DNA from: Streptomyces sp. NBC_00376
Lineage (GTDB): Bacteria > Actinomycetota > Actinomycetes > Streptomycetales > Streptomycetaceae
Assembly: GCF_036077095.1 (NCBI RefSeq)
Contig: NZ_CP107960.1
Coordinates: 558,001-622,000 of the forward strand
DNA length: 64,000 nt
Reading direction: 5' to 3'
Part shown: positions 34,943-53,934 of the stretch, piece after piece
How positions within the stretch are numbered: position 1 is the first letter of the stretch
Layout: every line of letters begins with the position of its first letter
Notes under the pieces: model-generated
What the model saw: the letters and a program-made list of their open reading frames with translations, nothing else
What the model was told of the DNA's origin: nothing
Databases searched by the model: none
Position numbers and translations under genes: made by a program

Positions 34943-36145
34943 CTACCAGGTCGCAACGATCCGCTGTGGGCTGCGGGAGGTGGTGCCCAGGTGCCATTCG
35001 ACGGTTTCCAGGGGCTGGGCCAGGCGCAGGCCGGGGAAGCGCGCTGCGAGCCGGTGCAGGGCGAGCCGGAGTTCCAGCCTGGCCAGCCAGGCGCCCAGGC
35101 AGTAGTGCGCGCCCGCTCCGAACGCCAGGGTGGGCGCCGCCAGGGGCGCGAACAGGTCGTCGAGCGGCCGGGGCGGGAACACCTCGGGGTCGCGGTTGGC
35201 CGCGCCGCAGTCGGCGAGGACCACCGCTCCCGCCGGGATAGTCACGCCGCCGACCTCCGTGTCGGTCGCGGCGTGGCGTGCGGTCCCCCGGTCGTCGCCG
35301 AGCGGAATCAGGTGCAGCAGGCGGTCCGCCAGTGTGCCGGCGGCCTTTTCGTCCGATCCGAGCCGGGGCCAGACCTCCGGTCGCTCACCGAGCAGATAGA
35401 GCAGTGAATTGCTGAGCATCGTCATCGTGCTGTCATGGCCGCCCACGATCAGCCCGCATACCAGGTGGACGAGTTGACTCTCCGGGATGCCGCCCTCCTC
35501 GTCGGCCGCCTGTACCAGCACGCTGGGCAGGTCGTCGCCCGGCTGCTTCCGCCGCCCGGCCAGCAGCCCGGCTCCGAAAGCTGCGAACTCCGCCAGCACG
35601 GAGGCCGTTTCCTCGTCGGGGTGGGAACCGTCCGAGAAGGCGTACTGGCTCCAGTGGCGCAGCGACTCCTGGGCTTCGCTGTCGAGGCCCATCACCCTGC
35701 TGATCACGGCGACCGGGAGCGGGAGGGTGAAGCCGGCCACCAGGTCCGCCGGGCGTGCGCTGTCCGCGAGTTCGTCCAGGCGCTGTTCGACGATCTCGGC
35801 GATCCAGGGACGCCAGCGGGCGACGGCCCTGGGCGTGAAGGCGCGCCGCATGGTGCGGCGCAGGCGCAGATGGTCCTCGCCGTCCTGGTTGAAGATCAGG
35901 TCGATGCTGCTCACCAGACCGGATTCACCCGACCGGGACGGGGAGTCCGGCGGGTGGAGCTCGGCGCGTCCGAACCGGGGGTCGGTCAGCACCATGCGCA
36001 CGTCGGCGTATCGGCTCACCAGCCAGGCCGGGGTCCCATCGGGTAACTCGACGGGCCGGGGTGGGCCGGGTGGGTCGAAGTCCAGCCGGTGCAGCGGGGG
36101 CAGGGGCGGGCCGGGGCGGATGTGGGCGTCGGCGGGGCAGGACAC
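34943..36145 (-). CDS. ftdF: Cytochrome P450 of the PTM cluster
   Basis: Haem-thiolate monooxygenase of 400 residues, last gene of the PTM operon, where the family member hydroxylates or oxidises the finished macrolactam. The I-helix is GLIVGGHDST (231-240) and the haem loop FGAGAHYCLG carries Cys 349. The K-helix ExxR is lost: the segment usually read as EELLR is DRLLH here (Arg 275, His 278). A TTA codon occurs at codon 34 (36046-36044), making it a bldA target. The start is GTG at 36145 with AGGAGG just upstream. It starts 65 bases after ftdE ends. Function in this strain is inferred from cluster position. Confidence 0.9.
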   Translation of the reverse strand: MSCPADAHIRPGPPLPPLHRLDFDPPGPPRPVELPDGTPAWLVSRYADVRMVLTDPRFGRAELHPPDSPSRSGESGLVSSIDLIFNQDGEDHLRLRRTMRRAFTPRAVARWRPWIAEIVEQRLDELADSARPADLVAGFTLPLPVAVISRVMGLDSEAQESLRHWSQYAFSDGSHPDEETASVLAEFAAFGAGLLAGRRKQPGDDLPSVLVQAADEEGGIPESQLVHLVCGLIVGGHDSTMTMLSNSLLYLLGERPEVWPRLGSDEKAAGTLADRLLHLIPLGDDRGTARHAATDTEVGGVTIPAGAVVLADCGAANRDPEVFPPRPLDDLFAPLAAPTLAFGAGAHYCLGAWLARLELRLALHRLAARFPGLRLAQPLETVEWHLGTTSRSPQRIVATW

Positions 36146-36210
36146 GGGGCCTCCTGGCTTGCACGGGTGCGGCGAACTGCTGGGGGGCGGGGGTTGCGCC
36201 GGGCAGGGGG

Positions 36211-37266
36211 TCAGAGTTCGACGAGTACCTTGCCCCGGTTGGCCCCGCTGTCCCGGTAGAGGCTCCGGTAGGCGTCCGGGATGTTCTCGAAGCCGTGGTG
36301 GAGGGTGTGTCGGCAGCGCACCTTGCCCCGCCGGACCAGGCCGCCGAGCTCGTCGTGGAGCGCGCGCCAGTTCGGTTCGGTGAACCATTCCAGCGAGAAG
36401 ATCCCCCGTACGTGTGCGCGCGGGAACATGATGTAGGGCAGCAGTCGCGGTCCCGTGACGTCGCGGCCCACCTGGGTGGCCCACTGCCAGCACACGGCCA
36501 CCTGGCTGTCGATGTTGAGCATGGAGAACACGGCGTCGGTGACGGTCCCGCCCAGATTGTCGAAATACTTGTCGACGCCGTCCGGCGCGGCCCACAGCAG
36601 CGCGTCCCGTACCGCCTCGCTGTTGTCCCCGTGGCGGTAGACGACGACCGCGTCGAACCCCAGCTCGTCGAGGTAGTCCGCCTTCTCCGGCGTCGATGTG
36701 GTGCCCACCACCCTGGCCCCCGCGAGCTTGGCCAGCTGGCCGACCAGCGAGCCGACGGAACCGGAGGCGCCGCTGATCACGACGGTGTCCCCCGGGCGGA
36801 TCGACATGAACTTGGTCAGGGTGCCCCAGGCGGTCATGCCGGGGCCGCCCATCACGCCGAGCGCGGTGGGCAGCGGCAGCACGTCGTCGTACCAGTCGGG
36901 GTCCAGGCGGCGGAAGGCCGGGAAAACCATCGGGAACGTGCCGGTCTGCCAGGGGGTGGCGGCGCCGTTGCTGACGAGATGGGTGCGCCAGCCGCCGAAC
37001 CCCTGCACCAGGTCACCGGGGCGGTGGGCGGCGAGCGGACCCGATTCCAGCACTTCCATGATCGAGTCGGCGCCCATGTGCGCACCGAGCGGGGTGTCCA
37101 GCGCGATGCCCTGGAGGTAGGGGTCCACCGATACGTAGCGCGTCCTCAGGAGCATCTCGTCCGGGGCGAGTTCGGTGTCGATCTCCTCCTCGATCTCGCC
37201 GTAGATCCGCTCGACGTCGGGGATGCCCTCGATGTGCTCGCGCACCACCCATTTCCTGGCCCTCAT
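36211..37266 (-). CDS. ftdE: Medium-chain NADP-dependent reductase of the PTM cluster
   Basis: A 351-residue zinc-free alcohol-dehydrogenase-like reductase. The N-terminal GroES-like domain has TRYVSVDPYLQGI and the cofactor motif VISGASGSVGSLVGQLAKLAG follows near residue 165; no zinc-ligand Cys cluster is present. In ikarugamycin (IkaC) and HSAF/frontalamide pathways the homologous enzyme makes a reductive ring closure of the tetramate macrolactam. ATG at 37266 overlaps the stop of the preceding gene by four bases (ATGA), so it is coupled to it. Confidence 0.9.
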   Translation of the reverse strand: MRARKWVVREHIEGIPDVERIYGEIEEEIDTELAPDEMLLRTRYVSVDPYLQGIALDTPLGAHMGADSIMEVLESGPLAAHRPGDLVQGFGGWRTHLVSNGAATPWQTGTFPMVFPAFRRLDPDWYDDVLPLPTALGVMGGPGMTAWGTLTKFMSIRPGDTVVISGASGSVGSLVGQLAKLAGARVVGTTSTPEKADYLDELGFDAVVVYRHGDNSEAVRDALLWAAPDGVDKYFDNLGGTVTDAVFSMLNIDSQVAVCWQWATQVGRDVTGPRLLPYIMFPRAHVRGIFSLEWFTEPNWRALHDELGGLVRRGKVRCRHTLHHGFENIPDAYRSLYRDSGANRGKVLVEL

Positions 37267-39011
37267 CCCGCTACCTCTCTCCCGACGGGGGCCGGTCGGC
37301 CCTCCGTGAGGGGCCGCGGCACCGGCCGGGGCCCCACCTCGATGACCCGGTGGGTCGGTGACGGACCGCTTTCGTCGATGGACGCGGTGAACGCGCGGCC
37401 GTCGTCGCGGCAGATGAACTGCATGACGTGCCGGCCTGCCGCCGCCGCGCGGATCAGGCCGCCGGTGGTCGCCCATACGCCGGACTGGTAGAAGTTCCGC
37501 AGCCCCGGCAGGCCGGGGCCGTGCCGTTTCACGAGCTTCTCCAGCGTTTCGCCGCTCTCCACGAACGGCTGCCAGCCAAGGACCGTGCCGTCGTAGTTGC
37601 CCGTGTAGCGGACCTGGGTGAGCGGGCTGGACACGTCACGGACGGCGATCGCGTCGGCGATGCCGGGGTGCTGCCGTTCCAGGAACGCGACTAGTGTCTC
37701 GCGGGCCCGGCGCTTGGCCGTGTAGTAGCCGCGGCCGTGGCGCACCGGGAGCGTGTGCAGCTCCTGCCCGCCCCGGCGGCGGGTCACCTGTTCCGGGCCT
37801 TCGTCCAGTGCGCGCCAGGGGGCGATGTCGCAGAAGTAGGTGACGTACGCGACGCTCGTCCCGGGTGGGGAGAGCTCGGGGTAGTGCTGATTGCGGAACT
37901 GGACGTTGATGCTGGGGTGCCGGATGCCGGTCAGTGCGGCCGCTTCCGTCTCGTCGAGCAGGTAGGTGGTGCAGGGGTCGGCGTCGGGGAAGTCGCGGCG
38001 CAGGCCGAGGAACAGCGTGAAGTAGCCGGGGAACACCATGCCGGGTTCCCGGATGGTGCGGGTGTAGAGGCGCCGGTACTCCTCGTTGAGGTAGCGGCCC
38101 TTCAGCAGGTCCATCATGGTGGTGCGTCCGTCGCAGGCCGAGACGATGATGTCGGCGCGCAGTTCACGGCCGTCGCTGAGCCGCACCCCGACCGCTCGGT
38201 CGTCCTCGACCAGTACTTCCTCGACCTTGGCGTTGTAGGTCACTTCGCCGCCGAGCGCGCGGTAGCGCTGCTCGATCGACTCGGCCAGCCCGAGCGAGCC
38301 TCCTTCGGGGACGCCCGCGGAGAGGTTGGCGTGTGAGGCGAGCTGGAAGTGGAACGGCAGTACGGGGAACGCCGGATGCTTCTCGTACAGGATGAAGTTG
38401 AACGCCTCGCGCAGCAGGGGGTCCTTGAACCGCGCCGAGAAGTCGGTCATCAGCACGCCGATGGATTTGCGCACGACGTTGAAGTACGGGATGAACGAGG
38501 CCAGCATGCGCCAGCGTTCCGTCGTCGGCATCAGTCCTACCGGTCTGAGGAACGGGTAGACGGCCAGGCATTTGCGGAAGGCGCGCAGTTGCTTGCAGAA
38601 GTTCCTGATCAGGGCCGAGTCGGCGGGCGAGAGCTCGGTGAGGTGGGCCTGGAGCCGGTCGGGGTCGGAGTAGAAGTACACGGCCCGGCCGCAGCGGCCG
38701 CGCACGACGTTGAACACGTCGAAGTGCCGGATCTCCTTGCCCTGCAACGCGCCGAGCTCCAGCCAGATCTGGTGCATCTCGTTGCCGGGACCGCTGCCCA
38801 GGAGCCAGCTGACGCAGGGGTCCAGTCTGAAGTCGCCCCGGTCCCAGGCCGTGCAGCAGCCGCCGGGCAGTTCATGCATCTCCAGGACATGGGTCCGGTA
38901 GCCGTTCATCCGGGCGTAGCACCCGGTGGACAGCCCGCCCAGCCCTGCGCCGATGATGATCATCGACTCTCGTTCGGAACGCGGCATGAACCTGTTCTCC
39001 TCGGTGCTCAT
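37263..39011 (-). CDS. ftdD: Phytoene-desaturase-like FAD enzyme of the PTM cluster (second copy)
   Basis: A 582-residue flavoprotein of the CrtI-like class. FAD motif SMIIIGAGLGGLSTGCYARMNG starts near residue 16, followed by HELPGGCCTAWDRGDFRLDPCVSWLLG, and the C-terminal GVWATTGGLIRAAAAGRHVMQF is the second FAD contact. In PTM pathways such enzymes form the carbocycles from the linear polyene tetramate. It is related along its length to the next gene upstream (ftdC), so the pair is an old duplication. ATG 39011 overlaps the ftdC stop by four bases. The last ~60 residues are a Pro/Arg-rich tail. Confidence 0.9.
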   Translation of the reverse strand: MSTEENRFMPRSERESMIIIGAGLGGLSTGCYARMNGYRTHVLEMHELPGGCCTAWDRGDFRLDPCVSWLLGSGPGNEMHQIWLELGALQGKEIRHFDVFNVVRGRCGRAVYFYSDPDRLQAHLTELSPADSALIRNFCKQLRAFRKCLAVYPFLRPVGLMPTTERWRMLASFIPYFNVVRKSIGVLMTDFSARFKDPLLREAFNFILYEKHPAFPVLPFHFQLASHANLSAGVPEGGSLGLAESIEQRYRALGGEVTYNAKVEEVLVEDDRAVGVRLSDGRELRADIIVSACDGRTTMMDLLKGRYLNEEYRRLYTRTIREPGMVFPGYFTLFLGLRRDFPDADPCTTYLLDETEAAALTGIRHPSINVQFRNQHYPELSPPGTSVAYVTYFCDIAPWRALDEGPEQVTRRRGGQELHTLPVRHGRGYYTAKRRARETLVAFLERQHPGIADAIAVRDVSSPLTQVRYTGNYDGTVLGWQPFVESGETLEKLVKRHGPGLPGLRNFYQSGVWATTGGLIRAAAAGRHVMQFICRDDGRAFTASIDESGPSPTHRVIEVGPRPVPRPLTEGRPAPVGREVAG

Positions 39012-40690
39012 GTGCGGGTGTCACCACGCATGGACCAGTTGTCGAGCTGGGGCAGTCGGCCCAGCTTTCCCGGATGCCAGGGGTCGGTGCCTCGGCTCTC
39101 GGTTGCCGTGAACCCGCGTCCCAGCTCGTCGCAGAGGTACTGGACGACGAAGCGCCCGGTGGACGCGGCACGGATCAGTCCGCCCATGCCGACCCACTGA
39201 CCGGCCATCGAGAATCCGCGCAGGCCCGGCAGGCGCATGCGGTCCTTGCCAACCAGCTTGGCCGCGATGTCGTCGGCCTCGGAGAACGCCTTCCAGGCCA
39301 GGATGGAACCGTCGTGGTTGCCGGTGTAGCGCCGGGTCGTCGCCGGGGAGGCGACATCGACCAGCTCGATGCGCTCGCCCGTGCCCGGCAGCCGGCGTTC
39401 CAGGAACCTCCTGACGAAGTCGGCCACTTGGCGCTTCTTCTCCCGGTATTCCTTGCGGTCGGCAGCGCGCAGTTCCTTCCAGTACGTGAAGTCGCTGAAG
39501 TAGGTGCAGTGGATGACCGATCTTCCGGGCGGCGCGAATCCGTCCGAGTAGTCGGAGCGCATCTGCACCACCACGCTGCTCTGCAGTGCGCCGGGCAGCT
39601 GCTCCGCGTCCTGCGGGTCGAGCAGGTAGGTGGTGCTGTGGGCCCGGTCGGGGCCCAGCTCGCCCCTGACTCCGACGAAGGCGGAGACCACCGCGGGGAA
39701 CAGCGTGCCGGGGCGGTGCAGCAGTTCGTCGTAGAGCTTGTCGATCCGCGGTCCGGTGTACCGGCCCTGCAGGAGACCGTGGATCGTGGTGTGGCCGTCG
39801 CAGGCCGCGACGACGTGGTCGGCGTAGTACCGCCTGCCGTTGCGCAGCTCGATCCCGACGGCGCGCCCGTCCTCGACCAGGATCCGTTCGACGCGCGCCC
39901 GGTAGCTGATCTCGCCGCCGAGGCCGGTGTAGCGTTCCTCGATCGACCGGGCCAGACCGAGCGAACCTCCTTGCGGGAAACCGGCGTTGTCGTGGTGGGC
40001 GCCGGCCATGTTGAACAGGTACGGCAGGAGCGGAAAGCCCTCCGGATCCTGGAAGAAGATGTTGCGGAACGCCCTGCGGAGCAAGGGGTCCTGGAACCGG
40101 TCGGCGAATTCGTGCATCGGCGTGGCCGCGGTGCGCCAGAACAGGCGGAACGCGGGCAGCACGGTGCGCAGCAGCGCCGCTCTCTCCCTTACGGTGCGCA
40201 GGGCGGGGGCGGTCAGGAACGGGTACAGCTCGATGTCGGTGAACCGGCGCAGATCACGGCAGAAGGAACGGATCAGCCGGGCGTCGGCGGGCGAGATTCC
40301 CAGCAGGTGGTGTTCCAGCCGGTCCGGGTCGTTGTAGAAGGTCACCGAGCGCCCGTTCTCGTCGACCACCCGGTTGAACATCTCGAAGTTGGTGATGGTC
40401 TTGCCGTCGAGCGCGCCCAGTTCGCGCCACACCTGGTTGGCTTCGTTGCCGGTGGCCGTGCCGATCAGCCATTCGATGCAGTAGTCGAAGATGTAGCCGT
40501 CGCGCGACCAGGCCGTGCAGCAGCCGCCGGGCAGCACATGCTTCTCGAAGATGCGCGAGCGCATCCCGTTCATCTGCGCGTAGCACCCGGTGGACATTCC
40601 CGCGACGCCGGCGCCGATCACGATGACCCGGGGGCTGCTGTCCTTCTCCCGGCCGGGAACACTCCAGTCGTCCTCCGTCTCATCGGCCAT
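39008..40690 (-). CDS. ftdC: Phytoene-desaturase-like FAD enzyme of the PTM cluster (first copy)
   Basis: A 560-residue CrtI-like flavoprotein. FAD motif RVIVIGAGVAGMSTGCYAQMNG near residue 21, HVLPGGCCTAWSRDGYIFDYCIEWLIG, and the C-terminal SMAGQWVGMGGLIRAASTGRFVVQY. Its family members catalyse the first reductive cyclisations of the PTM polyene. The start overlaps the end of ftdB by 11 bases, and its own stop overlaps the ftdD start, so ftdB-ftdC-ftdD-ftdE are one translationally coupled string. Confidence 0.9.
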   Translation of the reverse strand: MADETEDDWSVPGREKDSSPRVIVIGAGVAGMSTGCYAQMNGMRSRIFEKHVLPGGCCTAWSRDGYIFDYCIEWLIGTATGNEANQVWRELGALDGKTITNFEMFNRVVDENGRSVTFYNDPDRLEHHLLGISPADARLIRSFCRDLRRFTDIELYPFLTAPALRTVRERAALLRTVLPAFRLFWRTAATPMHEFADRFQDPLLRRAFRNIFFQDPEGFPLLPYLFNMAGAHHDNAGFPQGGSLGLARSIEERYTGLGGEISYRARVERILVEDGRAVGIELRNGRRYYADHVVAACDGHTTIHGLLQGRYTGPRIDKLYDELLHRPGTLFPAVVSAFVGVRGELGPDRAHSTTYLLDPQDAEQLPGALQSSVVVQMRSDYSDGFAPPGRSVIHCTYFSDFTYWKELRAADRKEYREKKRQVADFVRRFLERRLPGTGERIELVDVASPATTRRYTGNHDGSILAWKAFSEADDIAAKLVGKDRMRLPGLRGFSMAGQWVGMGGLIRAASTGRFVVQYLCDELGRGFTATESRGTDPWHPGKLGRLPQLDNWSMRGDTRT

Positions 40691-43600
40691 CGGCGCCGCC
40701 CTCCTGGAGGATGCCGCGCACCAGCTCGGCGTTGCGGGCCGCGTGCTTGGGGTCGAGCATGTCGGCGTGGATCCCGGAGCCGCGCAGCAGGGCGGTGGCC
40801 GTGGTCGAGCTGCCGTGCCAGGTGCCGGACTCGCCGGCGGCGTAGAGTGCCGTCTTCTCCTGGTCGGTGATCACACTGACGGTCGCGGACACCGTGCCGA
40901 GGTTCGGTGTGCGCCCGCAGAAGGCCAGGTACTCCGCGGCGTGGTCGAGGGTCTCGCGGGCCACCGCGTCCGATCCGGTGTGCTTGCGCAGGTGCTCGGC
41001 CAGTTCCGCCTCGAAGAACTCGATGTGCTCGGGGCCTGGTTCGTACGGTTCGACGATGCGGTGCGAGTCCAGCACGATCACATGGGCGACTTCGCGTCCC
41101 CGGCTCTCCAGTTCCCTGGCCACTTCGAAGGCGAGGTTGCCGCCGAGCGAGTAGCCGAGCAGCAGGCATCGGCCCTCGGGCCGGTGCGACTCGACGAGGT
41201 CGGCGTAGCGGGCCACCTTGTCGGCACCGGGGACGTAGTTGAAGGCGATCAGCCGGTACTCGGGCAGTGCGGTGGCGAACCCCCGGTAGACGAGTCCATG
41301 GCCGCCCGCCGGCGGGAAACAGAACACGGTCTGCTCCCGCTCGCTGTTGAAGCTGAGGCAGGGCAGGTCGTCGGCGATCGATCCGGTCGCCAGGCGTTCC
41401 AGCGTCGCGGCCATCCCGTGCAGGGTCGTGACCCGGTACAGCAGGCTGACGGGGATGCCAACGCCGAATTCCTTGCGCAGCCGGTGGATCAGCTCGATCA
41501 GTTTGATGGAGCTGCCGCCGGCCTCGAAGAACTCCTGTGTCAGGCCTGCCCTCTCCAGTCCGAGCAGTTCCTCCCAGTGCCGGGCCATGCTCAGCTCGAA
41601 GGGTGTGCGCGGCGTCTCCTCGGGTTCGTCGTCCGCGTCGAACCGGGGCGTCGGCAGGGTGGTGGGGTCGACCTTGCCGTTGGCGGTCAGCGGCAGTTGC
41701 GGCAGTACGACGAAGTGTGCCGGAACCATGTACGCGGGCAGCCGCTCCCCGAGGTACCGGCGCAGCGCGCGCCGGTCCGGTGCGGCCCCTCGGGCCGGGA
41801 CGCAGTAGGCGACGAGCACGTCCTCGCCGCGGGCGTCGGGGCGCACCGTGACGACCGTCCGGGCCAGCTCGGGCCGCTGGGCGAGGTGTGCCTCGATCTC
41901 GCCGATCTCGATCCGGTGGCCCCGGAGCTTGACCTGGTCGTCGACCCGGCCGAGCAGATGGACCCGGCCGTCCGCGTCCCAGCGTGCCGCGTCGCCGCTG
42001 CGGTAGAGGCGTACGGGGGCGGCGCCCGGCTCCCGGCTCAGGGTCCGGGTGACGAAGCGTCGGTCGGTCAGCTCGGGGTCGCCCGCGTAGCCGAGGGCGA
42101 CGCCTTCACCGCCGATCCACAGCTCGCCGGGCACACCGGGCGGCACCGGTTCGCCGTGCCGGTCGAGCACATGGAGCGTGCTGTTGCCCAGGGGCCGTCC
42201 GATCGGCACCGTCCGGCCGGGTTCCAGGTCGTCGACGGGGCCTTCGAAGAAGGCGCTGTCGATGGTCGCCTCGGTGACCCCGTAGGAGTTGATCAGTCGG
42301 GTCTGCGGCCCGCACAGGTCGTGCAGCCGTCGGTACTCCCCGGCTTTCCACACGTCGGACCCGACGACCAGCAGCCGCATGAAGTCCAGGCTCAGGTCCC
42401 GGCGTTCGCAGTGGTCCATGAGTCCGCGTACGACGGCGGGCACGAACTCCGCGCAGTCGACGCGCTCCCGGCGCATCGTGGTGTACAGGCGCTCGGTGTC
42501 GAAGAGCAGATCGCGGTCGACCAGCACCAGGCTGCCGCCGGAACACAGCGCCCGCACCACGTCGCCGGTGAAGACGTCGAACGACGGGGCGGCCATCTGA
42601 AGGTGTACCCGCACGTCGCGGTCCAGCCGGTATTCCTGGAGCCAGGCCGCGTAGGCCGAGGCGAGGTTGCGGTGGCTGACCCGCACGGCCTTGGGAAGGC
42701 CGGTCGAGCCGGAGGTGTGGATGACGTACGCGGCCGAGTCGGGTCCCGTCGGGTGCTCGGCGCCGGTCCCGCCCTCGCTCCGGCCGTCCGGCCCGTGGAC
42801 CGCGTCCGGGTGCGCCTCGCGCAGCTCCCGCAGCGTGAGGGTCAAGGCCGGCAGCCCTGCCATCCGGTCCCGGCAGGCGTCGTCCTCGACGACGACGAGG
42901 GTGGCGTCCGCGGCCCGGACGGCGTGGGCGGCGCGGTCGGCCGGATGGTCGGCCGGGATCGGGAGATAGGCACCCCCGGCCTTGAGGACCGCGAGCAGTG
43001 CGACGACGAGGTCGGGCGACTTCTCCATGCAGAGTGCCACCACCGACCCGGCACCGGCCCCGAGCGCGCGCAGTCGCCGGGCCAGCTCGTCCGAACCGTG
43101 GTCCAGTTCCGCGTACGTGAGCCGGCGCCCCGGCCCCTGGAGCGCCGGGGCCGTGATGGCCACGGCGTCCGGGCAGCGGGCGGCGGTCTCGCTGATCAGC
43201 CGGTGCACCGGGCGGAATCCGTCCGTCCCGCCCTCCCCCGCCGCCGGGGGCAGGGCGATGCGTCCGGTGCCGCTCCACTCGCTGATCAGCCGCTCGCGCT
43301 CCTGGGCGTCCAGCATCTCCAGCCGGGAGGTGGGCCGGTCCGCCGGGGCGCGGGTCATGCTGTCGAGCAGTGCGGTGTAGTGCGATGCCATCCGCCGCAT
43401 GGTCTCCGGCAGGAACAGGTCGGTGTTGTACTTCAGGACGCAGTGGAAACGGCGCTCCGCCTCGTCCTCGTAGACCGACAGCGTCACATCGAACTGTCCC
43501 TCCTCTTCGGGGAGTTCGATGTACTGGAGCCGGTAGCCGTACTTCTCGGTGGCGACCTTGTGGGTCAGCAGGATGAACATGGCCTGGAACACCGCGGAGC

Positions 43601-46600
43601 GGCTGGGGTCGTGCTGGAGCCCCAGTTCGTCGACCAGCAGCACGAAGGGGTACTCCTGGTTGTCCAGGCCGCCCAGCACCGTGGTGCGGACCTCTTGGAG
43701 CAGCCGGGCCACCGACGGGTCGCCGGACAGATCCGCGTGCAGCGGGAGCGGATTGACGAAATAGCCGTAGACGGAGGCGAAATCCTGCTCGGTCCGGCCG
43801 GTCACCGGGCTGCCGACGATGACCTGGTCCTGGCCGGAGTAGCGCTGCAACAGCAGGTAGTAGGCGCTGAGCAGCACCATGAAGGGGGTCACGTCGTGCT
43901 CGCGGGCCAGGGTGTGCACCCGGGCGCTCAGCTCGCCGTCCAGGACGAAGAACTCCGAGGCGCCATTGTGTGTCTGCACGGCGGGACGGGGCTTGTCGAC
44001 GGGCAGTTCCAGGGTCGGCACCTCGGCCGGCAGGTGCGAACGCCAGTAGTCGAGCATGCGCGGCGCCGCGGGTCCGGCCAGGAAGCGGTTCTGCGCGTTG
44101 AGGAAGTCCAGGTAGCGGGCGGTGACGGGCGGCAGCGAGGGGGCCTGCCCCTGGCGGAGCCCCTCGTACACCGCCAGGAGCTCCTCGATGAAGGTGAACG
44201 TCGAGATCGCGTCGGAGACGATGTGGTGCACCGCCTTCATGATCACCCAGCGGTCGGGGGCGCGCTTGAAGAGGCGGAAGCGGAAGAGCGGGTCGCTCTC
44301 CAGGTCGTACGGCTTTCGGTACTCGGCGACGATCGTGCGGTGGATGTCCTCCCACTCCTGGTCCTGCACGTCGAACAGTGCGACGTCCGGGCTCTGCTCC
44401 GGCGACACCTGTTGCAGCGGCACGCCGTCCACCGTGCGGAAGTTGGTGCGCAGGGCGGGGTGTCGTGCCACCATGCGGCGCACGGCCTCGAACATGCGGT
44501 CGGGATCGAGTGAGACCCGGACCTCGACCGCACCGCCGATGTTGTACGCGTAGCCCTCGGGGTTGAGCTGCCTGAGGAACCACAGGGCCTTCTGGTTCTG
44601 TGTCAGCGGGTGGCTGAGTTCGTCCTCGAACACCTCCACCTCGCCCGTGTCCGTTCCGCCGGCCTCGTGGGCGACCAACTCGGCCAGGGCGTCGTGGAGT
44701 TGCGTGATCAGTTCGGCGACCGGGGTGCCGCTCAGCAGTGCCACCACGGGCGGGGCGACGCCGAGCTCGGAGCTGATGCGGGCGCGCAGCTCCATCGCAA
44801 GGAGCGAGTCGAGCCCCAGTGCGTTGAGCCCGGCCTGCGGATCGACCCGGTCGGGGCCGGTCCGCAGCACCGAGGCGGTCAGTTCGACGAACCGTCCGGT
44901 CACCAGGGACAGGCGTTCCGCCGTGTCCGCGTGACGGAAGGTTTCGAGGATGCCCTCGCCCGGCCCGATGGCCGCCCTGGCGGGGGCCGCCGCCGCCAGC
45001 TCGGCGACCAGCCGGGGCGGTGAGGCGTACCAGGCCTGGAACACCGGCCAGTCGACGACCGTGGCGACGAGCAGCTGGGCGCGGTCCTGGCCGATGACGC
45101 GTTCCAGCACGGACATGCCGACGTCCGGTGCGAGCGAGCTCATCCCCCGGTTGTGGAGGTAGTGGTCGACGAGCCCCAGCTCCTCGATCATGCCGGTGGC
45201 CCAGGGGCCCCAGTCCACGCTCAGCCCCGGCAGCCCGCCTGCCCGGCGGTGCTGGGCCAGCGCGTCCAGGAACGCGTTGCCCGCGGCGTAGTTGGTCTGG
45301 CCCGCCGTGGTCAGCAGCGAGGCGATCGAGGCGAACAGCACGAAGTGGTCCAGCGGTTCGTCCCGCAGGTGGCGGTGGAGCAGGTGGGCACCGATGGCCT
45401 TGGGGTCGTGGGCCTCGGCGAACGTGCGGTGGTCCATGTCCTCGACGAGTGTGTCGCGGACCTGACCGGCGAGATGGAACACGCCGCGCACCGGCAGCGG
45501 ATCGGTGCGCCGGTGAGCGTCCAGCCAGGCCGTGAACGCGGCTTCGTCGGTGATGTCGAGCGGCGCCAGGACGACCCGTGCCCCGAGCGCCTCCAGTTCC
45601 TTGACGAAGGCGGTGGCACGGCCCGCAGCGGTGTCGGGGTCGAGCTCCCGCCAGGTGGAGCGCTCAGGCAGTGCGGTGCGTCCGATCAGGATCAGACTGC
45701 GCGCGCCACACCGGACGAGCGTCCGGCAGAGCAGTCGGCCGAGCGCTCCGAAGGCGCCGGTGACCAGGTAGTTCGCATCGGTGCGCAGTCGCAGTGGAAG
45801 GGGGTGTGTCAGTTGTTCGGCCCGTCGGATGCGGCTGGTCCGGCGGGCCGAACCACGGAGCGCGATCTCCTCCTCGTCGTCGGTGAGGAGTTCACGCAGC
45901 AGCGCACGGGCCTCGGCCCGGCACTCCTCGTCGCCCGGCACCCGGGGGCCCAGGTCGATCAGTTTGCCGGGGTGCGAGGTGAGCTCCTGGTGCCTGAGCA
46001 CCCGGCCCACTCCCCACGCCGGTGCTCCCAGCGGCTCGACGGTCTCGCCGGGCTCGACGTGCTGGGCGCCACGGGTCACGATGTGCAACCGGCCGGCCTT
46101 CCCGCGGCGGAGCAGCGTGCGGGCGAGCGCGATCAGCGAGTAGGCCCCGGCGGCGCTGGTCCGTACGAGGTCCTGCGCAGAGGCCTGGGCGAGCGAAGGC
46201 AGGTCGAGGTTCCACAGATGCACGATGGATCCGACGCTTCCCGCGCCGCCCGCGCCGCCGCTGTGCTCGCCGTCCCTGCCTTCGCCCAGGTCGGTGAACA
46301 GTCGCTCCAGGTCGGTGGCGGACCCCGGGACGACCGTGAACCCGTCGCCTTCGCCCCCTCGCCGGTACGTGTCGCCCGGACGCACCAGGTGGCAGCGCTC
46401 ACCCCGGGCGGCCAGCAGGGCGCTCAGGGCGTCGCCTACGCCCTGGCTGTCGGCGAACACCAGCCAGTCGCCGCCGGTGGGCTCGGTGAGGCGGCCTTCG
46501 GCGCCGGTGGCCGCGCCGTGTCCGGCCTCGTCCGTGGCGGGGTCGAAGGGGCTGTCGATCCAGGCGGTCTCGGCGAGCCATGAGTCGATCGTGCCGAGTC

Positions 46601-49600
46601 CGACCGTGGTGGAGGCCTTCTCCACATCGGCGGCGCGGAAGCCGTTGATGCCGCCGAGGGGCTCGCCGCTGTCCGCGTAGACGGCCATGTCCCCGACGAG
46701 CTCGTCCGCGCCGTCGCGGGTCACCGTGGCATGCACCCAGATCGGCCGGTCTCCCACCGGGGCGAGGCGCAGCTCGTCGATCGACAGCGGCAGGCGGATC
46801 CCGGTAGTCCGGCGTTCCGGTCCACCGGCAACCGCGCTGGTGCCTTCGGCTTCGAGCAGCTGTGTCGTCAGCAGCGACTGGAAACAGGCGTCGAGCACTA
46901 CGGGATGGATATGGTGTCCGGCCGCGTCGTCACCGATCACCGCGGGCGGGCGCAGACGGGCGAGCACCTCTCCGGAGCCGATCCACACCTCGCCGATGGC
47001 CCGGAACGCGGGCCCGTAGTGGTAGCCGAGGGCGGCGAGCTCCGCGTAGCATTCCTCGCCTCCCAGCCTGCGCCGGGCGCGGGCCCGGAGGGCTTCGGTG
47101 TCGGCGGGGGGCCCGGCCGGCCGCGGCTGGCCCGAGCGCACGACTCCGCTCGCGTGAACCGCCCGGCCGCCCTCGTCCGGCCCCTTCGACGCGATCGTGA
47201 ACGCCGCGTTCTGCGAGGAGAGGGTCAGCCGGACGGCCCGGTCCTCGCCCTCCGGCAGGAACAGCGCCTTGCGGAACTCGATGTCCGTCAGCACGACATG
47301 GGTGCCGCCGGTCAGGGCGCGGACCGCCTGCGTGGCCATCTCCAGGTATCCCGCTGCCGGGAAGACCACTGTGGACTGGATGCGGTGGTCGTCGAGGTAG
47401 GGCAGCCGCTCGGTGTCCAGGGCGGTGTCCCAGGTCGGTTCGGTGTCCGTGGTGCGACGGCCCAGCAGCGGGTGGTCGGCGTGGCCGAGACGGACCTGGG
47501 CCACGGGTGCGGGCTCCGTCCAGTAGCGGTCCCGCCGCCACGGGTAGCGGGGCAGTACCACCGATCTGCCCGCCGGGTGCAGGGTGTCCCAGGCGATGGG
47601 GACGCCGAGGTTGTGCAGCTGGGCCAGCGAGGCGGCGAAGCGCTCCGGCTCGTTCTCCTGGCGGCGGATCGACGGCAGGGTCCGTGCGGCCGCACCCCGG
47701 TCTTCGAGGCACTCGCGGATGGAGTGGCCGAGCACCGGGTGCGGACCGATCTCCAGGAACAGTCCGTATCCGTCGTCGGCGAGCCGGTCGACGGCCGAGC
47801 GGAAACGGACCCGGTGGCGGACGTTCTTCCACCAGTAGCTCGCGTCCAGCTCGCTGCCGTGGGCCGTGCCCTCCTGCCCGGTCAGGTACAGCGGAACCGT
47901 CGCCGTCCGGGGAGCGAGATCCTCCAGCGAGGCCAGCAGTTCGTCCTTGATCACCTCCATGCCCGCGCTGTGGTAGGGAACCTGCACCGTGAGGAACTTG
48001 GCGAAGACCTGCTCGGCGTGGAGCCGGTCCGCCAGCTCGGCCAGTGCGTCACGGTCGCCGGCCAGGGTGACCGCCGAGGGGCTGTTGACCGCGGCGACGG
48101 ACACCCGGTCCCCGAACTCGGCCACCCGGGCCTGCGCCTCGTCCTCGGGCAGGCTCACGGCGAGCATGGTGCCGGTCCCGGTCAGCTTCTGCTGGAGACG
48201 GCTGCGGTGCAGCACCACCTTCACCGCGTCCTCCAGGGAGTAGACCCCAGCCTCGTAGAAGGCGGCGACCTCTCCGGTGCTGTGACCGACGACGGCGTCG
48301 GGCCGCACACCGTACTGGCGCCACATGGCCGCGAGTCCCACCTGGACGGCGAAGTTGGCCGGCTGTGCGAGCCAGGTCTCGCCCATGCGCGACCCGGCTT
48401 CGTCGGCCCTCATCTCCTCGATCAGGGACCAGCCGGCAATCGAGCGGACGACTCGGTCGCAGCGGGTCACGGCATCCAGGAACACCTCGTCGCCGTCCAG
48501 CAGTTGGCGGCCCATCCCCCACCACTGCGGCCCCATCCCGGTGAAGACCCAGACCAGGCCGCGCTGTCCGGCTTCGAGCTGCCGGCCTTGGACGACTCCG
48601 GGGTGCGGCTCGCCGCACAGGAAGGCGTCGAGTGCCTCGTCCAGTCCCGCCCGCGAGGAGTACACGACGGAGAGCCGCGACTCCAGATGCTGGCGGCGGT
48701 GGGCCAGTGTGTAGCCGAGGTCGGGGAGCGACACCCCGGGGCCGTGCGTTCCTGACAGTTCGCGGCGGATGCCGGCCGCCACCTCCGGGAGGGCTTCCGG
48801 GGCGCGGGCGGTCAACGGAAGGATGTTCCAGGCCCGTTCGGCGGGCGGAACCGACGGAGCGCTCCGCTCCGGTGCCTGTTCCAGCACGACGTGCGCGTTG
48901 GTGCCACCGAACCCGAACGAGTTCACCCCGGCCCGCGCGGGTCCCACATGTGCGGGCCACCGGGTCGGCTCGGTCGGGATGCGGTACGGGGACGCCCCCT
49001 GGTCGATGGCGGCGTTCAGCTGCTCCAGGTTGATGTGGGGCGGGATCATGCGGTGCTTGAGGCAGAGCACGGTCTTGATCAGGCCGGCGATGCCCGCCGC
49101 CGATTCGGTGTGCCCGATGTTGGTCTTGACGGAGCCCACGTAGCAGGGTGCGTCCGGTCGGCGGCCCTCGGCCAGCGCCCGGCTCAGTGCGTTCGCCTCG
49201 ATGGGGTCGCCCACCGGCGTGGAGGTGCCGTGCGCTTCCACGTACTGGAGGTCGCCGGGCGTGATGCCGGCCTCGCCGCAGACACGCCGGATGAGGGAGA
49301 CCTGGGCGTCCGCGTTGGGCACGGTGATGCCGTTGGTCCGGCCGTCCTGGTTGACCCCCGCGCCGAGGATCACCGCGTGGATGGGGTCGCCGTCGCGCAG
49401 GGCGTCGTCAAGGCGTTTCAGCGCGACCAGGCCGACGCCCTCGGCCCGTACGTAGCCGTTGGCCGTGGCGTCGAACGCGCGTGAACGGCCGTCGGGCGAC
49501 AGGAATCCGCCCTTCGTCTCGGCGATGGTGTACTGCGGCGCCATGTGCAGCAGAACACCACCGGCCAGCGCGAGATCGGTCTCCCGGTTGTTGAGGCTCT

Positions 49601-50186
49601 GACAGGCGAGATGCACGGCGACCAGGGAGGAACTGCACGCTGTGTCGAGCGACAGGCTCGGTCCGCGGAAGTCGAAGCAGTACGAGAGACGGTTCGAGAC
49701 CATCGTCATCATGGTGCCGGTGGCGGTGTGGGCGGCGAGTGACGAGAAGCCCAGGTCGGAGAATTGCAGGATCTTGTAGTCCAGCGTGAACGCACCGACG
49801 AACACGGCGGTATTGCTGCCCGCGAGCTCCGCGGGCCGTTGCCCACCGTCCTCCAGCGCCTCCCACGCGACTTCGAGCAGCTTTCGCTGCTGCGGGTCCA
49901 TGTGGTCGGCCTCGCGCGGGCTGATGCCGAAGAAGGCGGGGTCGAATTCGTCGAAACCGTCGATATATCCACCGCGGCCGCCGATCAGACGTCCCGGTTT
50001 CTCCTTGTGTCTGCTGCCGAGACTGCCGACGTCATAGCGATCGGCCGGTGTCGGTGTGATGCAGTCCTTGCCCTCCATGAGGTTCTGCCAGTACGCGCGG
50101 TGGTCCGACGCACCGCCGGGCAGTCGGCACCCCATGCCGATGATCGCTACTTTTTCGCTCACGGAGGCACTGTTCACGTCGGGCAA
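40680..50186 (-). CDS. ftdB: Iterative hybrid PKS-NRPS for polycyclic tetramate macrolactams
   Basis: A 3168-residue megasynthase. Order by residue: KS 10-435 (DTACSSS Cys 184, His 319 and 359); AT 545-850 (GHSTGEV, malonyl-type); DH 900-1190 (HRIQSTVVFP, Gly of HxxxGxxxxP is Ser; Asp 1099); KR 1470-1720 (Ser 1620, Tyr 1633); ACP about 1750-1835 (Ser 1794); C 1855-2300 (HHIVSDA); A 2325-2840; PCP 2860-2930 (Ser 2893); TE 2950-3168 (GYSLGG, Ser 3013). The single PKS module works repeatedly to make two polyene chains that are joined to an amino acid; TE closes the tetramate. My reading of the A pocket is DVGELVSIDK, close to the ornithine code DVGEIGSIDK. The start is TTG behind GAGGAG. Confidence 0.95.
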   Translation of the reverse strand: MPDVNSASVSEKVAIIGMGCRLPGGASDHRAYWQNLMEGKDCITPTPADRYDVGSLGSRHKEKPGRLIGGRGGYIDGFDEFDPAFFGISPREADHMDPQQRKLLEVAWEALEDGGQRPAELAGSNTAVFVGAFTLDYKILQFSDLGFSSLAAHTATGTMMTMVSNRLSYCFDFRGPSLSLDTACSSSLVAVHLACQSLNNRETDLALAGGVLLHMAPQYTIAETKGGFLSPDGRSRAFDATANGYVRAEGVGLVALKRLDDALRDGDPIHAVILGAGVNQDGRTNGITVPNADAQVSLIRRVCGEAGITPGDLQYVEAHGTSTPVGDPIEANALSRALAEGRRPDAPCYVGSVKTNIGHTESAAGIAGLIKTVLCLKHRMIPPHINLEQLNAAIDQGASPYRIPTEPTRWPAHVGPARAGVNSFGFGGTNAHVVLEQAPERSAPSVPPAERAWNILPLTARAPEALPEVAAGIRRELSGTHGPGVSLPDLGYTLAHRRQHLESRLSVVYSSRAGLDEALDAFLCGEPHPGVVQGRQLEAGQRGLVWVFTGMGPQWWGMGRQLLDGDEVFLDAVTRCDRVVRSIAGWSLIEEMRADEAGSRMGETWLAQPANFAVQVGLAAMWRQYGVRPDAVVGHSTGEVAAFYEAGVYSLEDAVKVVLHRSRLQQKLTGTGTMLAVSLPEDEAQARVAEFGDRVSVAAVNSPSAVTLAGDRDALAELADRLHAEQVFAKFLTVQVPYHSAGMEVIKDELLASLEDLAPRTATVPLYLTGQEGTAHGSELDASYWWKNVRHRVRFRSAVDRLADDGYGLFLEIGPHPVLGHSIRECLEDRGAAARTLPSIRRQENEPERFAASLAQLHNLGVPIAWDTLHPAGRSVVLPRYPWRRDRYWTEPAPVAQVRLGHADHPLLGRRTTDTEPTWDTALDTERLPYLDDHRIQSTVVFPAAGYLEMATQAVRALTGGTHVVLTDIEFRKALFLPEGEDRAVRLTLSSQNAAFTIASKGPDEGGRAVHASGVVRSGQPRPAGPPADTEALRARARRRLGGEECYAELAALGYHYGPAFRAIGEVWIGSGEVLARLRPPAVIGDDAAGHHIHPVVLDACFQSLLTTQLLEAEGTSAVAGGPERRTTGIRLPLSIDELRLAPVGDRPIWVHATVTRDGADELVGDMAVYADSGEPLGGINGFRAADVEKASTTVGLGTIDSWLAETAWIDSPFDPATDEAGHGAATGAEGRLTEPTGGDWLVFADSQGVGDALSALLAARGERCHLVRPGDTYRRGGEGDGFTVVPGSATDLERLFTDLGEGRDGEHSGGAGGAGSVGSIVHLWNLDLPSLAQASAQDLVRTSAAGAYSLIALARTLLRRGKAGRLHIVTRGAQHVEPGETVEPLGAPAWGVGRVLRHQELTSHPGKLIDLGPRVPGDEECRAEARALLRELLTDDEEEIALRGSARRTSRIRRAEQLTHPLPLRLRTDANYLVTGAFGALGRLLCRTLVRCGARSLILIGRTALPERSTWRELDPDTAAGRATAFVKELEALGARVVLAPLDITDEAAFTAWLDAHRRTDPLPVRGVFHLAGQVRDTLVEDMDHRTFAEAHDPKAIGAHLLHRHLRDEPLDHFVLFASIASLLTTAGQTNYAAGNAFLDALAQHRRAGGLPGLSVDWGPWATGMIEELGLVDHYLHNRGMSSLAPDVGMSVLERVIGQDRAQLLVATVVDWPVFQAWYASPPRLVAELAAAAPARAAIGPGEGILETFRHADTAERLSLVTGRFVELTASVLRTGPDRVDPQAGLNALGLDSLLAMELRARISSELGVAPPVVALLSGTPVAELITQLHDALAELVAHEAGGTDTGEVEVFEDELSHPLTQNQKALWFLRQLNPEGYAYNIGGAVEVRVSLDPDRMFEAVRRMVARHPALRTNFRTVDGVPLQQVSPEQSPDVALFDVQDQEWEDIHRTIVAEYRKPYDLESDPLFRFRLFKRAPDRWVIMKAVHHIVSDAISTFTFIEELLAVYEGLRQGQAPSLPPVTARYLDFLNAQNRFLAGPAAPRMLDYWRSHLPAEVPTLELPVDKPRPAVQTHNGASEFFVLDGELSARVHTLAREHDVTPFMVLLSAYYLLLQRYSGQDQVIVGSPVTGRTEQDFASVYGYFVNPLPLHADLSGDPSVARLLQEVRTTVLGGLDNQEYPFVLLVDELGLQHDPSRSAVFQAMFILLTHKVATEKYGYRLQYIELPEEEGQFDVTLSVYEDEAERRFHCVLKYNTDLFLPETMRRMASHYTALLDSMTRAPADRPTSRLEMLDAQERERLISEWSGTGRIALPPAAGEGGTDGFRPVHRLISETAARCPDAVAITAPALQGPGRRLTYAELDHGSDELARRLRALGAGAGSVVALCMEKSPDLVVALLAVLKAGGAYLPIPADHPADRAAHAVRAADATLVVVEDDACRDRMAGLPALTLTLRELREAHPDAVHGPDGRSEGGTGAEHPTGPDSAAYVIHTSGSTGLPKAVRVSHRNLASAYAAWLQEYRLDRDVRVHLQMAAPSFDVFTGDVVRALCSGGSLVLVDRDLLFDTERLYTTMRRERVDCAEFVPAVVRGLMDHCERRDLSLDFMRLLVVGSDVWKAGEYRRLHDLCGPQTRLINSYGVTEATIDSAFFEGPVDDLEPGRTVPIGRPLGNSTLHVLDRHGEPVPPGVPGELWIGGEGVALGYAGDPELTDRRFVTRTLSREPGAAPVRLYRSGDAARWDADGRVHLLGRVDDQVKLRGHRIEIGEIEAHLAQRPELARTVVTVRPDARGEDVLVAYCVPARGAAPDRRALRRYLGERLPAYMVPAHFVVLPQLPLTANGKVDPTTLPTPRFDADDEPEETPRTPFELSMARHWEELLGLERAGLTQEFFEAGGSSIKLIELIHRLRKEFGVGIPVSLLYRVTTLHGMAATLERLATGSIADDLPCLSFNSEREQTVFCFPPAGGHGLVYRGFATALPEYRLIAFNYVPGADKVARYADLVESHRPEGRCLLLGYSLGGNLAFEVARELESRGREVAHVIVLDSHRIVEPYEPGPEHIEFFEAELAEHLRKHTGSDAVARETLDHAAEYLAFCGRTPNLGTVSATVSVITDQEKTALYAAGESGTWHGSSTTATALLRGSGIHADMLDPKHAARNAELVRGILQEGGADGR

Positions 50187-50236
50187 GGCTGTAACTCCTC
50201 AAGTCGTGACGCCGAGGACCGGCATGGAAGGGCAGT

Positions 50237-51175
50237 TCAGACAGAACCGGTCCTGGGCCCCTTCGCACGGCGCAAGGGGTGGAGAAGGCTGGCAACGATC
50301 TCCCCGGTACGGGGGAAGGCCGCGGGATCGCCGAGCCCGACCGCGACCGGTTCGCGGCCGGGCCGCCAGGTGTAACTGTCGAAGGCGTGGTCCCAGATCG
50401 ACAGGTCCGAGCCGTAGTGGCCCGCCTCGGACAGGTCTGTGCTGTGGTGCAGTCGGTGCTGTTCGGGGCTGGCGAGCACATGGTTGAGCCGGCCGATGCG
50501 CACGTCGATGTTGGCGTGGATGAAATAGCCCTGGGCGGCCACGAAAAGGCCCACGACGAACACGGAGTCCCGGGAGAATCCGACCAGCGCCAGAGCCAGC
50601 TGAACGGTTCCCTGCGCGAGAACGATATCGAGGACATGATTGACGCCATTATTGGCGACATTGACCTTTTCCGGCACATGGTGCACTCCGTGCAGCCGCC
50701 ACAATATCGCATTGGTATGGCCGAGCCGGTGCACCAGGTAACTGGCAAGAGAACCGGTCAGCAATGCCGCCGGTATTTCTGCCCAGAGATTGAGATCCGA
50801 TCCACTCGGCGACACCTCGGAGACAACGACGGAGACCAGGTACTGTGCGAATGCACTGGATACCATCGTCAGCACGAAATAGACCCCGTACCAGTACCAT
50901 TCACCGGCATTGGGATGCCAGGACCGGCGGTGCGGAATCAATCGTTCGAGCACGGTGAAATAGGAAATGACACCGAGCAGGAAGAGCGGGCTCACACGGT
51001 CGGGGTCCCAGTCGAGACACAGTGCCGTCGCAGCCACCGAAACCGCGCCCGCCAGCAGGAACGGGTACGCCGCCACACGCAGGGCTGCGCGCGCGGGCAC
51101 CGGGGCACCTTTCCCTCCGGCCCGACCGGAATCCACCTCCGGATCACCGCCGGGCAGCGGTTCACGATTTTCCAC
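50237..51175 (-). CDS. ftdA: Sterol desaturase/fatty acid hydroxylase family enzyme of the PTM cluster
   Basis: Di-iron membrane hydroxylase of 312 residues and first gene of the PTM operon. Four to five hydrophobic helices surround the His motifs HRLGH, HGVHH and HRLHH (about residues 147-240). Homologues in HSAF and frontalamide clusters hydroxylate C3 of the ornithine-derived part. The start is GTG at 51175 with AAAGG eight bases upstream, and the stop is 50 bases before ftdB. The 401-base region upstream is the probable site of the operon promoter. Confidence 0.92.
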   Translation of the reverse strand: MENREPLPGGDPEVDSGRAGGKGAPVPARAALRVAAYPFLLAGAVSVAATALCLDWDPDRVSPLFLLGVISYFTVLERLIPHRRSWHPNAGEWYWYGVYFVLTMVSSAFAQYLVSVVVSEVSPSGSDLNLWAEIPAALLTGSLASYLVHRLGHTNAILWRLHGVHHVPEKVNVANNGVNHVLDIVLAQGTVQLALALVGFSRDSVFVVGLFVAAQGYFIHANIDVRIGRLNHVLASPEQHRLHHSTDLSEAGHYGSDLSIWDHAFDSYTWRPGREPVAVGLGDPAAFPRTGEIVASLLHPLRRAKGPRTGSV

Positions 51176-51576
51176 TCACAGCACCTTTACGAAAGGAACC
51201 GGCACAGCGGGGTGCACTGGCCAGGAAAGAGACACTGATTCACCGCATGCGGGCACACGGGACCGGCACACCGGTCACCACGTGCCGGACGAAAGGAATA
51301 TACGCTGAAGCGCGAGAGGGATCGCCTGATGGACCCCACGGACCCGAGAACCCTCGCCGGGCCGGCCCGCTCTACTAACTTTTCCTCACTCGGCGGCCTC
51401 AACCGTCGAATTCAAGCCGCATGCTGCGACCGTCGTGGCGGGAGTCGTCGACAAGGGCCGGACCACCCGGTCCACCGGGGCCGCCCCAACCACCGCCCAC
51501 CCCATCCATCCAGTCCACCATGAATATGAATTACTAGTAATACAGGCGCAAGGGGGTCGACCTCTCAGAGGGGCGC
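51176..51576 (-). promoter_or_regulatory. Upstream region of the PTM operon
   Basis: A 401-base gap between the end of gltD and the start of ftdA with no convincing gene. It has two AT-richer spots in otherwise GC-rich DNA. One near 51297-51302 reads TATATT on the minus strand, a possible -10 about 120 bases before ftdA without a good -35. The other holds a 12-bp perfect palindrome ATTACTAGTAAT (51530-51541) within AT-rich flanks. A 71-codon minus-strand frame at 51187-51402 has no family resemblance. Confidence 0.5.
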
Positions 51577-53343: not shown

Positions 53344-53934
53344 ATGCGCAGAAAGATCACCTCGTTCATCCTCGGCCTCGGGATCGCCGGAGCCTCCCTC
53401 TTCGTCACCACAGGCAGCGCTCAGAGCCATGGCTACACCGACGCCCCGGTCAGCCGTCAGCAGCTCTGCGGCAACGGCACCGTGCGCAACTGCGGCCAGA
53501 TCCAGTGGGAGCCGCCGAGCGTCGAGGGCCCGAAGGGCTTCCCCGCCCGCGGCCCGGTCGACGGCACCATCTGCGCCGGCGGCAACGGCCGGTTCTCCGA
53601 GCTCGACGACCCGCGTGGCGGCGCCTGGCCCGCGACGAAGGTCACCGGCGGGCAGAGCTACACCTTCCGCTGGCGCATCGAGGCCCGGCACGCCACGACC
53701 GATTTCCGCTACTACATAACCAAGGACGGCTACGACCCCGCCAAGCCCCTCACCAGGGCCGACCTGGATCCGCAGCCGTTCCTGACAGTGCCCTTCGGCG
53801 GCCGTCTGCCGGGATCCACCGTGACCCACGACGGGATCCTGCCGCAGAAGTCGGGCAAGCACCTGATCCTCGGCGTCTGGACGATCGCCGACACCGGCAA
53901 CGCGTTCTACGCCTGCTCGGACGTCACCTTCTGA
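53344..53934 (+). CDS. AA10 lytic polysaccharide monooxygenase (chitin-binding protein)
   Basis: Secreted copper enzyme of 196 residues that cleaves crystalline chitin oxidatively. The signal peptide RRKITSFILGLGIAGASLFV ends before His 29, which becomes the N-terminal copper ligand (HGYTDAPVSRQQLC). The second His of the brace is in IEARHATTDFRYYITKDGYDP (about residue 116) and the axial Phe is in GNAFYACSDVTF at the C-terminus. Single-domain length is normal for small Streptomyces CHB proteins. A DasR-type operator lies upstream, so GlcNAc-responsive control is likely, and a strong hairpin follows. Confidence 0.95.
   Translation: MRRKITSFILGLGIAGASLFVTTGSAQSHGYTDAPVSRQQLCGNGTVRNCGQIQWEPPSVEGPKGFPARGPVDGTICAGGNGRFSELDDPRGGAWPATKVTGGQSYTFRWRIEARHATTDFRYYITKDGYDPAKPLTRADLDPQPFLTVPFGGRLPGSTVTHDGILPQKSGKHLILGVWTIADTGNAFYACSDVTF

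Follow-up and report, generated by a model that had tools for sequence, protein, structure and literature searches.

The question raised by this locus is whether six adjacent genes of Streptomyces sp. NBC_00376, which resemble a biosynthetic cluster for a polycyclic tetramate macrolactam (PTM), form a complete and working set, and whether one of them, ftdF, encodes the cytochrome P450 that it appears to encode. The window, by which we mean the whole 64,000-nucleotide stretch analysed (558001-622000 of contig C1, in a genome of 10.04 Mb), holds six intact open reading frames on the minus strand between positions 34943 and 51175, in the order ftdA-B-C-D-E-F; the original prediction had named these six gene types, their common strand, their order, and these outer limits, and the reading frames and their translations bear it out on every count. 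We are highly confident that the locus is a PTM cluster of Group I (5/5/6-type), complete and probably functional. As such it is ordinary and of a common, well-known type by which soil bacteria produce antifungal compounds rich in rings, and the less usual part is the P450, which lacks the ExxR motif, a signature regarded as nearly universal among P450s. The six genes are the following.

50237 to 51175, minus strand: ftdA, 312 aa, fatty-acid/sterol-type hydroxylase, a C-25 hydroxylase by homology to FtdA/SD/SGR815
40680 to 50186, minus strand: ftdB, 3168 aa, iterative polyketide synthase-nonribosomal peptide synthetase (PKS-NRPS), KS-AT-DH-KR-ACP-C-A-PCP-TE by Pfam, with catalytic residues conserved across 76 aligned FtdB
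39008 to 40690, minus strand: ftdC, 560 aa, CrtI-like FAD oxidase, putative cyclase for the second five-ring, matched to PtmB1/OX2/SGR813 in homology and position (roles as given in PMC6950151 and PMC8399814)
37263 to 39011, minus strand: ftdD, 582 aa, CrtI-like FAD oxidase, putative cyclase for the first five-ring, matched to PtmB2/OX3/SGR812 in homology and position
36211 to 37266, minus strand: ftdE, 351 aa, reductase of the medium-chain dehydrogenase/reductase (MDR) type, putatively forming the inner six-ring by homology to PtmC/OX4; start set by alignment
34943 to 36145, minus strand: ftdF, 400 aa, cytochrome P450-fold protein (PF00067)

For the last two genes, alignment places the start at ATG 37266 (ftdE) and GTG 36145 (ftdF), not at the longest-frame starts 37476 and 36595. 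Neighbouring genes share 4-11 bases at three of the junctions and are separated by 50-65 bases at the remaining two, an arrangement that suggests a single transcript for all six genes.

The FtdB synthetase and conservation of the cluster

FtdB is a single-module iterative hybrid of the architecture expected of Group I, in which Pfam finds, in order, a ketoacyl synthase (residues 11-388), acyltransferase (545-862), dehydratase (905-1191), ketoreductase (1471-1663), PP-binding, condensation (1860-2300), AMP-binding (2333-2838), a second PP-binding (2870-2929), and thioesterase (2953-3077) domain. Residues were counted over 76 aligned FtdB sequences from Streptomyces, Lysobacter, and others, the window's own included; 3 of 79 (L033, L051, and L076, with frames below 2500 aa) were excluded, and gapped rows stand outside the per-residue counts. 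The window's FtdB retains KS Cys/His/His, AT Ser/His, DH His/Asp, KR Tyr, ACP Ser, C HHxxxD, A Lys, PCP Ser, and TE Ser/His, as do all or nearly all of the others, and the KR Ser is replaced by Ala in 3 other FtdB. The adenylation domain is the following.

41673 to 43190, minus strand: adenylation domain of FtdB, residues 2333-2838, with pocket code DVGELVSIDK (Pfam; alignment of FtdB)

The code had been read from the sequence at ten residues, and our alignment reproduces all ten exactly. It recurs unchanged in 55 of the 76 FtdB (54 of the 75 others), both Lysobacter rows among them, and pocket positions 1, 2, 3, 7, and 9 (D, V, G, S, and D) are invariant in 76 of 76. The pocket therefore appears to be of the PTM (ornithine) type that characterizes Group I. 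In other NRPSs, DVGEIGSIDK is the code of ornithine modules. Judged from sequence, the FtdB code supports the designation of PTM synthetase directly, and ornithine by way of the chemistry of the PTM family.

The best 80 of 435 relatives found by a public-genome scan with FtdB represent 78 distinct loci, with 53-93% identity in the best segment, and it is on these that the locus counts below are based; the nearest by identity, at 93%, is Streptomyces sp. ADI95-17 (L012). All six genes lie on one strand in 31 of the 78 loci, and since all 31 share the order A-B-C-D-E-F, that order is beyond chance. A same-strand homologue of ftdC or ftdD accompanies FtdB in 70 of the 78. The possibility that the cluster is a pseudogene was rejected, since every frame is intact and purifying selection acts on each of the six genes, with ratios of nonsynonymous to synonymous substitution rates (dN/dS) of 0.10-0.34 against five relatives. 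Elsewhere, locus L178 (G204:C3:290000-309500) has adjacent ftdE and ftdF homologues, the 15 kb upstream of which contain no further ftd gene, and is perhaps a decayed PTM cluster.

Tailoring enzymes and the predicted product

Two phytoene-dehydrogenase-like oxidases are present, which is the number by which PMC6950151 defines Group I, the Lysobacter-type Group II clusters having three. FtdC and FtdD both match FAD/amine-oxidase models in Pfam, with GAGVAG at residue 26 and GAGLGG at residue 21, respectively. The remainder of the Group I set is also in place, namely an alcohol-dehydrogenase (MDR) homologue, a C-25 hydroxylase (SD/FtdA), and a P450 (FtdF). FtdE matches PF16884 and PF00107, and its matches to NF058644 and TIGR02825 fall below their cut-offs; FtdA matches PF04116 (E 4.6e-24), is 90% identical to its L012 counterpart, and carries the His motifs HRLGH, HGVHH, and HRLHH.

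In the characterized systems, an iterative PKS-NRPS makes a common polyene tetramate, a PtmB2/OX3 homologue forms the first five-membered ring and a PtmB1/OX2 homologue the second, an alcohol-dehydrogenase homologue closes the inner six-membered ring, and SD/FtdA hydroxylates C-25 (PMC6950151, PMC8399814, PMC11724479). By this model, FtdB would iteratively build two polyene chains, join both to the two amines of one ornithine, and release a tetramate; FtdD and then FtdC would close the first and second five-membered rings; FtdE would close the inner six-membered ring; FtdA would hydroxylate C-25; and FtdF may further oxidise the core, at a site that is a guess (hydroxylation of C-12 or dehydrogenation at C-14, the two options put forward for PtmE'/FtdF). 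Each of these chemical steps is carried over from named relatives, the direct evidence being that of gene identity, order, domains, catalytic residues, code, orthology, and selection. The earlier expectation of a tricyclic, probably 5-5-6 product is supported by gene content, which equals the Group I set of PMC6950151.

Clusters with this same gene set are reported to yield both 5/5 and 5/5/6 products (PMC6950151), and the sko cluster gives koyanamide A beside 10-epi-HSAF (PMC8399814). It is thus conceivable that an intact cluster makes mainly a 5/5 bicyclic or less processed PTM, because FtdE or FtdF act poorly, but we consider this unlikely, since ftdE is intact, 95% identical to the L012 FtdE, and under selection with a dN/dS of 0.17. 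The cluster adds to the likely producers of tetramate macrolactams, which are antifungal and cytotoxic, and its orthologues make it easy to test.

FtdF, a P450 without ExxR

FtdF has the fold and sequence homology of a P450 (PF00067) and the haem-thiolate Cys signature, FGAGAHYCLG. At the K-helix position where P450s carry ExxR, it reads RLLH (RxxH), a feature that the original prediction had passed over.

35312 to 35323, minus strand: K-helix codons 275-278 of ftdF, R-L-L-H at the E-x-x-R position (gap-free alignment to PDB P450s)
35099 to 35101, minus strand: codon of the haem-ligand cysteine C349 of ftdF, Cys in 121 of 121 rows and in 56 of 56 genus matches

An alignment error as the source of the missing motif was rejected, the alignment being gap-free to three PDB P450s that read EELLR or EELFR. 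Nor is the window's gene an isolated case. In the aligned FtdF rows, the Glu position is Arg in 120 of 121 and the Arg position is His in 121 of 121. A protein search covered 120 of 733 homologues. Across 392 genomes of the genus, ExxR is found in none of 56 FtdF-like genes, which divide into 31 RxxH, 24 QxxR, and 1 NxxR. The motif is present in 19 of 20 weaker P450 frames of the PTM loci, on either strand. In a P450 tree, the rows without ExxR all lie on one side of a 100/100 branch. Sampled for this tree were 9 of the 34 FtdF loci, 15 genus matches out of 56, one of them from the window, and 17 of 27 own-genome P450 frames (30 loci); its midpoint root is for drawing only. The own-genome frames outside the tree are FtdF itself (L110), its paralogue (L114, present as L147), two L113 frames, L087, L088, L089, L095, L107, and L112; by pattern, ExxR is found in L087, L088, L089, L107, and one of the L113 frames. 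The meander of FtdF also differs from that of many P450s, and two QxxR rows deviate from the FtdF pattern. Loss of the meander Arg is not claimed as a further sign, several ExxR P450s (e.g., L030, L032, L048, and L070) being without it as well.

The idea that loss of ExxR is a trait of PTM clusters only was rejected, the group including genes unlinked to PTM genes. The same genome holds a second RxxH P450 (G000:C1:6067731-6068873; L147:7229-8452, minus strand), 54% identical to FtdF and not beside PTM genes; among five of its neighbours, scanned with NCBIfam alone, only a MerR-type regulator was matched. At L150 (G159:C1:8707500-8724500), the three neighbours scanned of a QxxR P450 encode elongation factor Tu, a ribose-phosphate pyrophosphokinase, and an antiporter/NuoM-like subunit; should they be second copies, they might point to self-resistance in an uncharacterised cluster.

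Can such a protein be an active P450? That FtdF is a structural or substrate-binding helper, or is decaying, and does not work as an oxygenase, would fit the alteration of both ExxR residues and the uncertainty of the AlphaFold2 (AF2) model about the haem loop, where residues 341-350 have a mean predicted local distance difference test score (pLDDT) of 42. It would also fit the apparent dispensability of the FtdF step for making PTMs: a same-strand orthologue above 450 bits is found in 34 of the 78 FtdB loci and not in the other 44, in some because the contig ends. We nevertheless rate this as improbable. The haem Cys and the Asp-Ser acid/alcohol pair are retained in 121 of 121 rows, the dN/dS of FtdF against five relatives is 0.20-0.34, and there is no stop codon in any of the 56 genus matches; the retained Cys, the pair, and the selection together favour an active enzyme. 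Our reading, which we put forward as the more probable one while allowing considerable room for error, is that FtdF and its relatives form a separate lineage of haem-thiolate P450s, active as enzymes, in which ExxR was lost stepwise, with Glu first giving way to Gln or Asn while Arg was kept (QxxR and NxxR), and both residues then being replaced (RxxH). The FtdF proteins of PTM clusters would be the tailoring members of this lineage, other members lying outside such clusters.

Work published by Yan et al. in 2021 deals, to judge by its title, with P450s from different PTM pathways, and may have tested an FtdF-type enzyme. Precedent for a P450 without the full motif is provided by CYP157, in which Glu is kept and Arg becomes Trp in the K helix (EVLW and EQSLW; PMC3599690). 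It is because CYP157 shows that the motif is not absolute that FtdF is called a P450 here, on homology and fold and not on ExxR. Membership of FtdF in CYP157 (conservon) was rejected, its RxxH not being the CYP157 signature. In the open-licence literature searched, CYP157 was the only ExxR exception found, none appearing in the available excerpts of PMC6408508, PMC7369989, and PMC7404182, and no paper combining "tetramate macrolactam" with "EXXR" was found. A survey of 48 Streptomyces species states that all 1625 P450s have the EXXR glutamate and the CXG cysteine, except for 34 that it regards as fragments or pseudo-P450s because of their short sequence (PMC6408508). Read literally, that statement argues against any common group lacking Glu, unless genes of this kind were among the excluded ones or were left out of the count. 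Proteins with one of the two motifs only are counted as pseudo-P450s in PMC7369989; since ExxR is thus an entry criterion for P450s (PMC7369989, PMC6408508), a conserved group that is under selection yet lacks the motif would drop out of inventories of this sort. If our reading of FtdF is true, it joins CYP157 as a second departure from the K-helix rule, and a more complete one, which is discarded by definition from motif-based surveys; the clusters that contain it still had no assigned final oxidation step in 2021. The group would then be a natural test of the purpose of the ExxR pair, and the action of FtdF on the PTM core becomes a testable question.

Weighing the assignment

That FtdB might belong to a non-PTM hybrid PKS-NRPS family could be argued from the 8 of 78 loci without an ftdC or ftdD homologue, four of which are cut by a contig end and four of which (L036, L042, L059, and L066) have 10 kb of downstream sequence without a CrtI-like cyclase homologue by tblastn, but we give it a negligible chance because of the gene neighbourhood, both cyclases following the window's FtdB and likewise those of its nearest relatives, and the condensation-domain tree also stands against it. 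In that tree (20 FtdB rows and, of the genome's 37 other C hits, the 7 with loci), the C domain of FtdB and 19 other FtdB-type C domains share one side of a 100/100 branch, apart from the 7 other C domains of the same genome, which serve as outgroup; clustering with non-PTM hybrids, which would have counted against the original prediction, is therefore not seen. The 19 include the four loci without a nearby cyclase gene; these may encode PTM-like synthetases whose polyene tetramate is put to another use. The identification as a complete frontalamide/HSAF-type (heat-stable antifungal factor) PTM cluster stands on the genes, this tree, the pocket code, and the cyclases of the 70 loci.

Three points weigh against this reading. 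The FtdF-type P450, proposed for C-12 hydroxylation or C-14 dehydrogenation, was stated in 2021 to be of unverified function (PMC8399814). Stereochemistry and oxidation pattern are not fixed by gene content. Third, an insertion upstream of ftdA is absent from six aligned relatives, and on account of it the cluster may be silent or differ in its expression.

51477 to 51519, minus strand: 43-nt insertion between a 12-bp palindrome and a conserved 17-bp block, in the window alone of seven aligned sequences
51400 to 51416, minus strand: conserved 17-bp block upstream of ftdA, candidate promoter/operator element, identical in the window and 5 relatives and with 2 mismatches in 3 more

The palindrome, ATTACTAGTAAT (51530-51541), recurs without mismatch in three relatives, and a fourth differs from it at one position. 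Allowing up to 3 mismatches, the 17-bp block is matched 0.06 times in shuffles of the window and twice in the window, once by itself and once by an unrelated 3-mismatch match at 7996. Neither a sigma-70-like promoter nor a terminator was found within 51100-51700, although promoters of Streptomyces may not follow this model. Work on promoter variation in PTM clusters exists. No title on it was found in the open-licence literature searched, and PMC7729405 is silent on the topic in its available excerpt.

The cluster boundaries are probably ftdA and ftdF, because flanking genes, such as those for an MFS transporter, an NmrA-like protein, and a GltD-like oxidoreductase, are matched in no more than 4-5 loci, against 56-78 for ftdA-ftdE. 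A gene for an LPMO_10 lytic polysaccharide mono-oxygenase lies nearby on the plus strand (53344-53934), with matches in five loci.

Comparison with known systems

The ftd cluster of Streptomyces sp. SPB78, which makes frontalamides, presumably has the same six-gene order as the window. The known system compared by sequence is SGR810-815 of S. griseus, represented by S. griseus NCTC13033 (L080), which has all six genes in the same order and an identical pocket code, with 72% identity in the best FtdB segment and 69-82% for the other five proteins; the conserved 17-bp upstream block was not found in it. Likened by description and not by sequence, the ftd genes of SPB78 share names and roles with those of the window (PMC6950151, PMC11724479), and the ptm' cluster of SCSIO 40010 and the sko cluster of S. 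koyangensis, both of 10-epi-HSAF producers, share the Group I gene content, with sko protein sizes alike. For 10-epi-HSAF, PMC6950151 gives an [M+H]+ of 513.296. For FtdF, the PTM P450s of known structure, IkaD and CftA (8jnc and 8jnp), are 33% and 36% identical over the structural alignment. The Streptomyces CYP157 proteins are like FtdF in being without the full ExxR, but whereas CYP157 keeps the Glu and replaces Arg with Trp, FtdF changes both residues to give RxxH.

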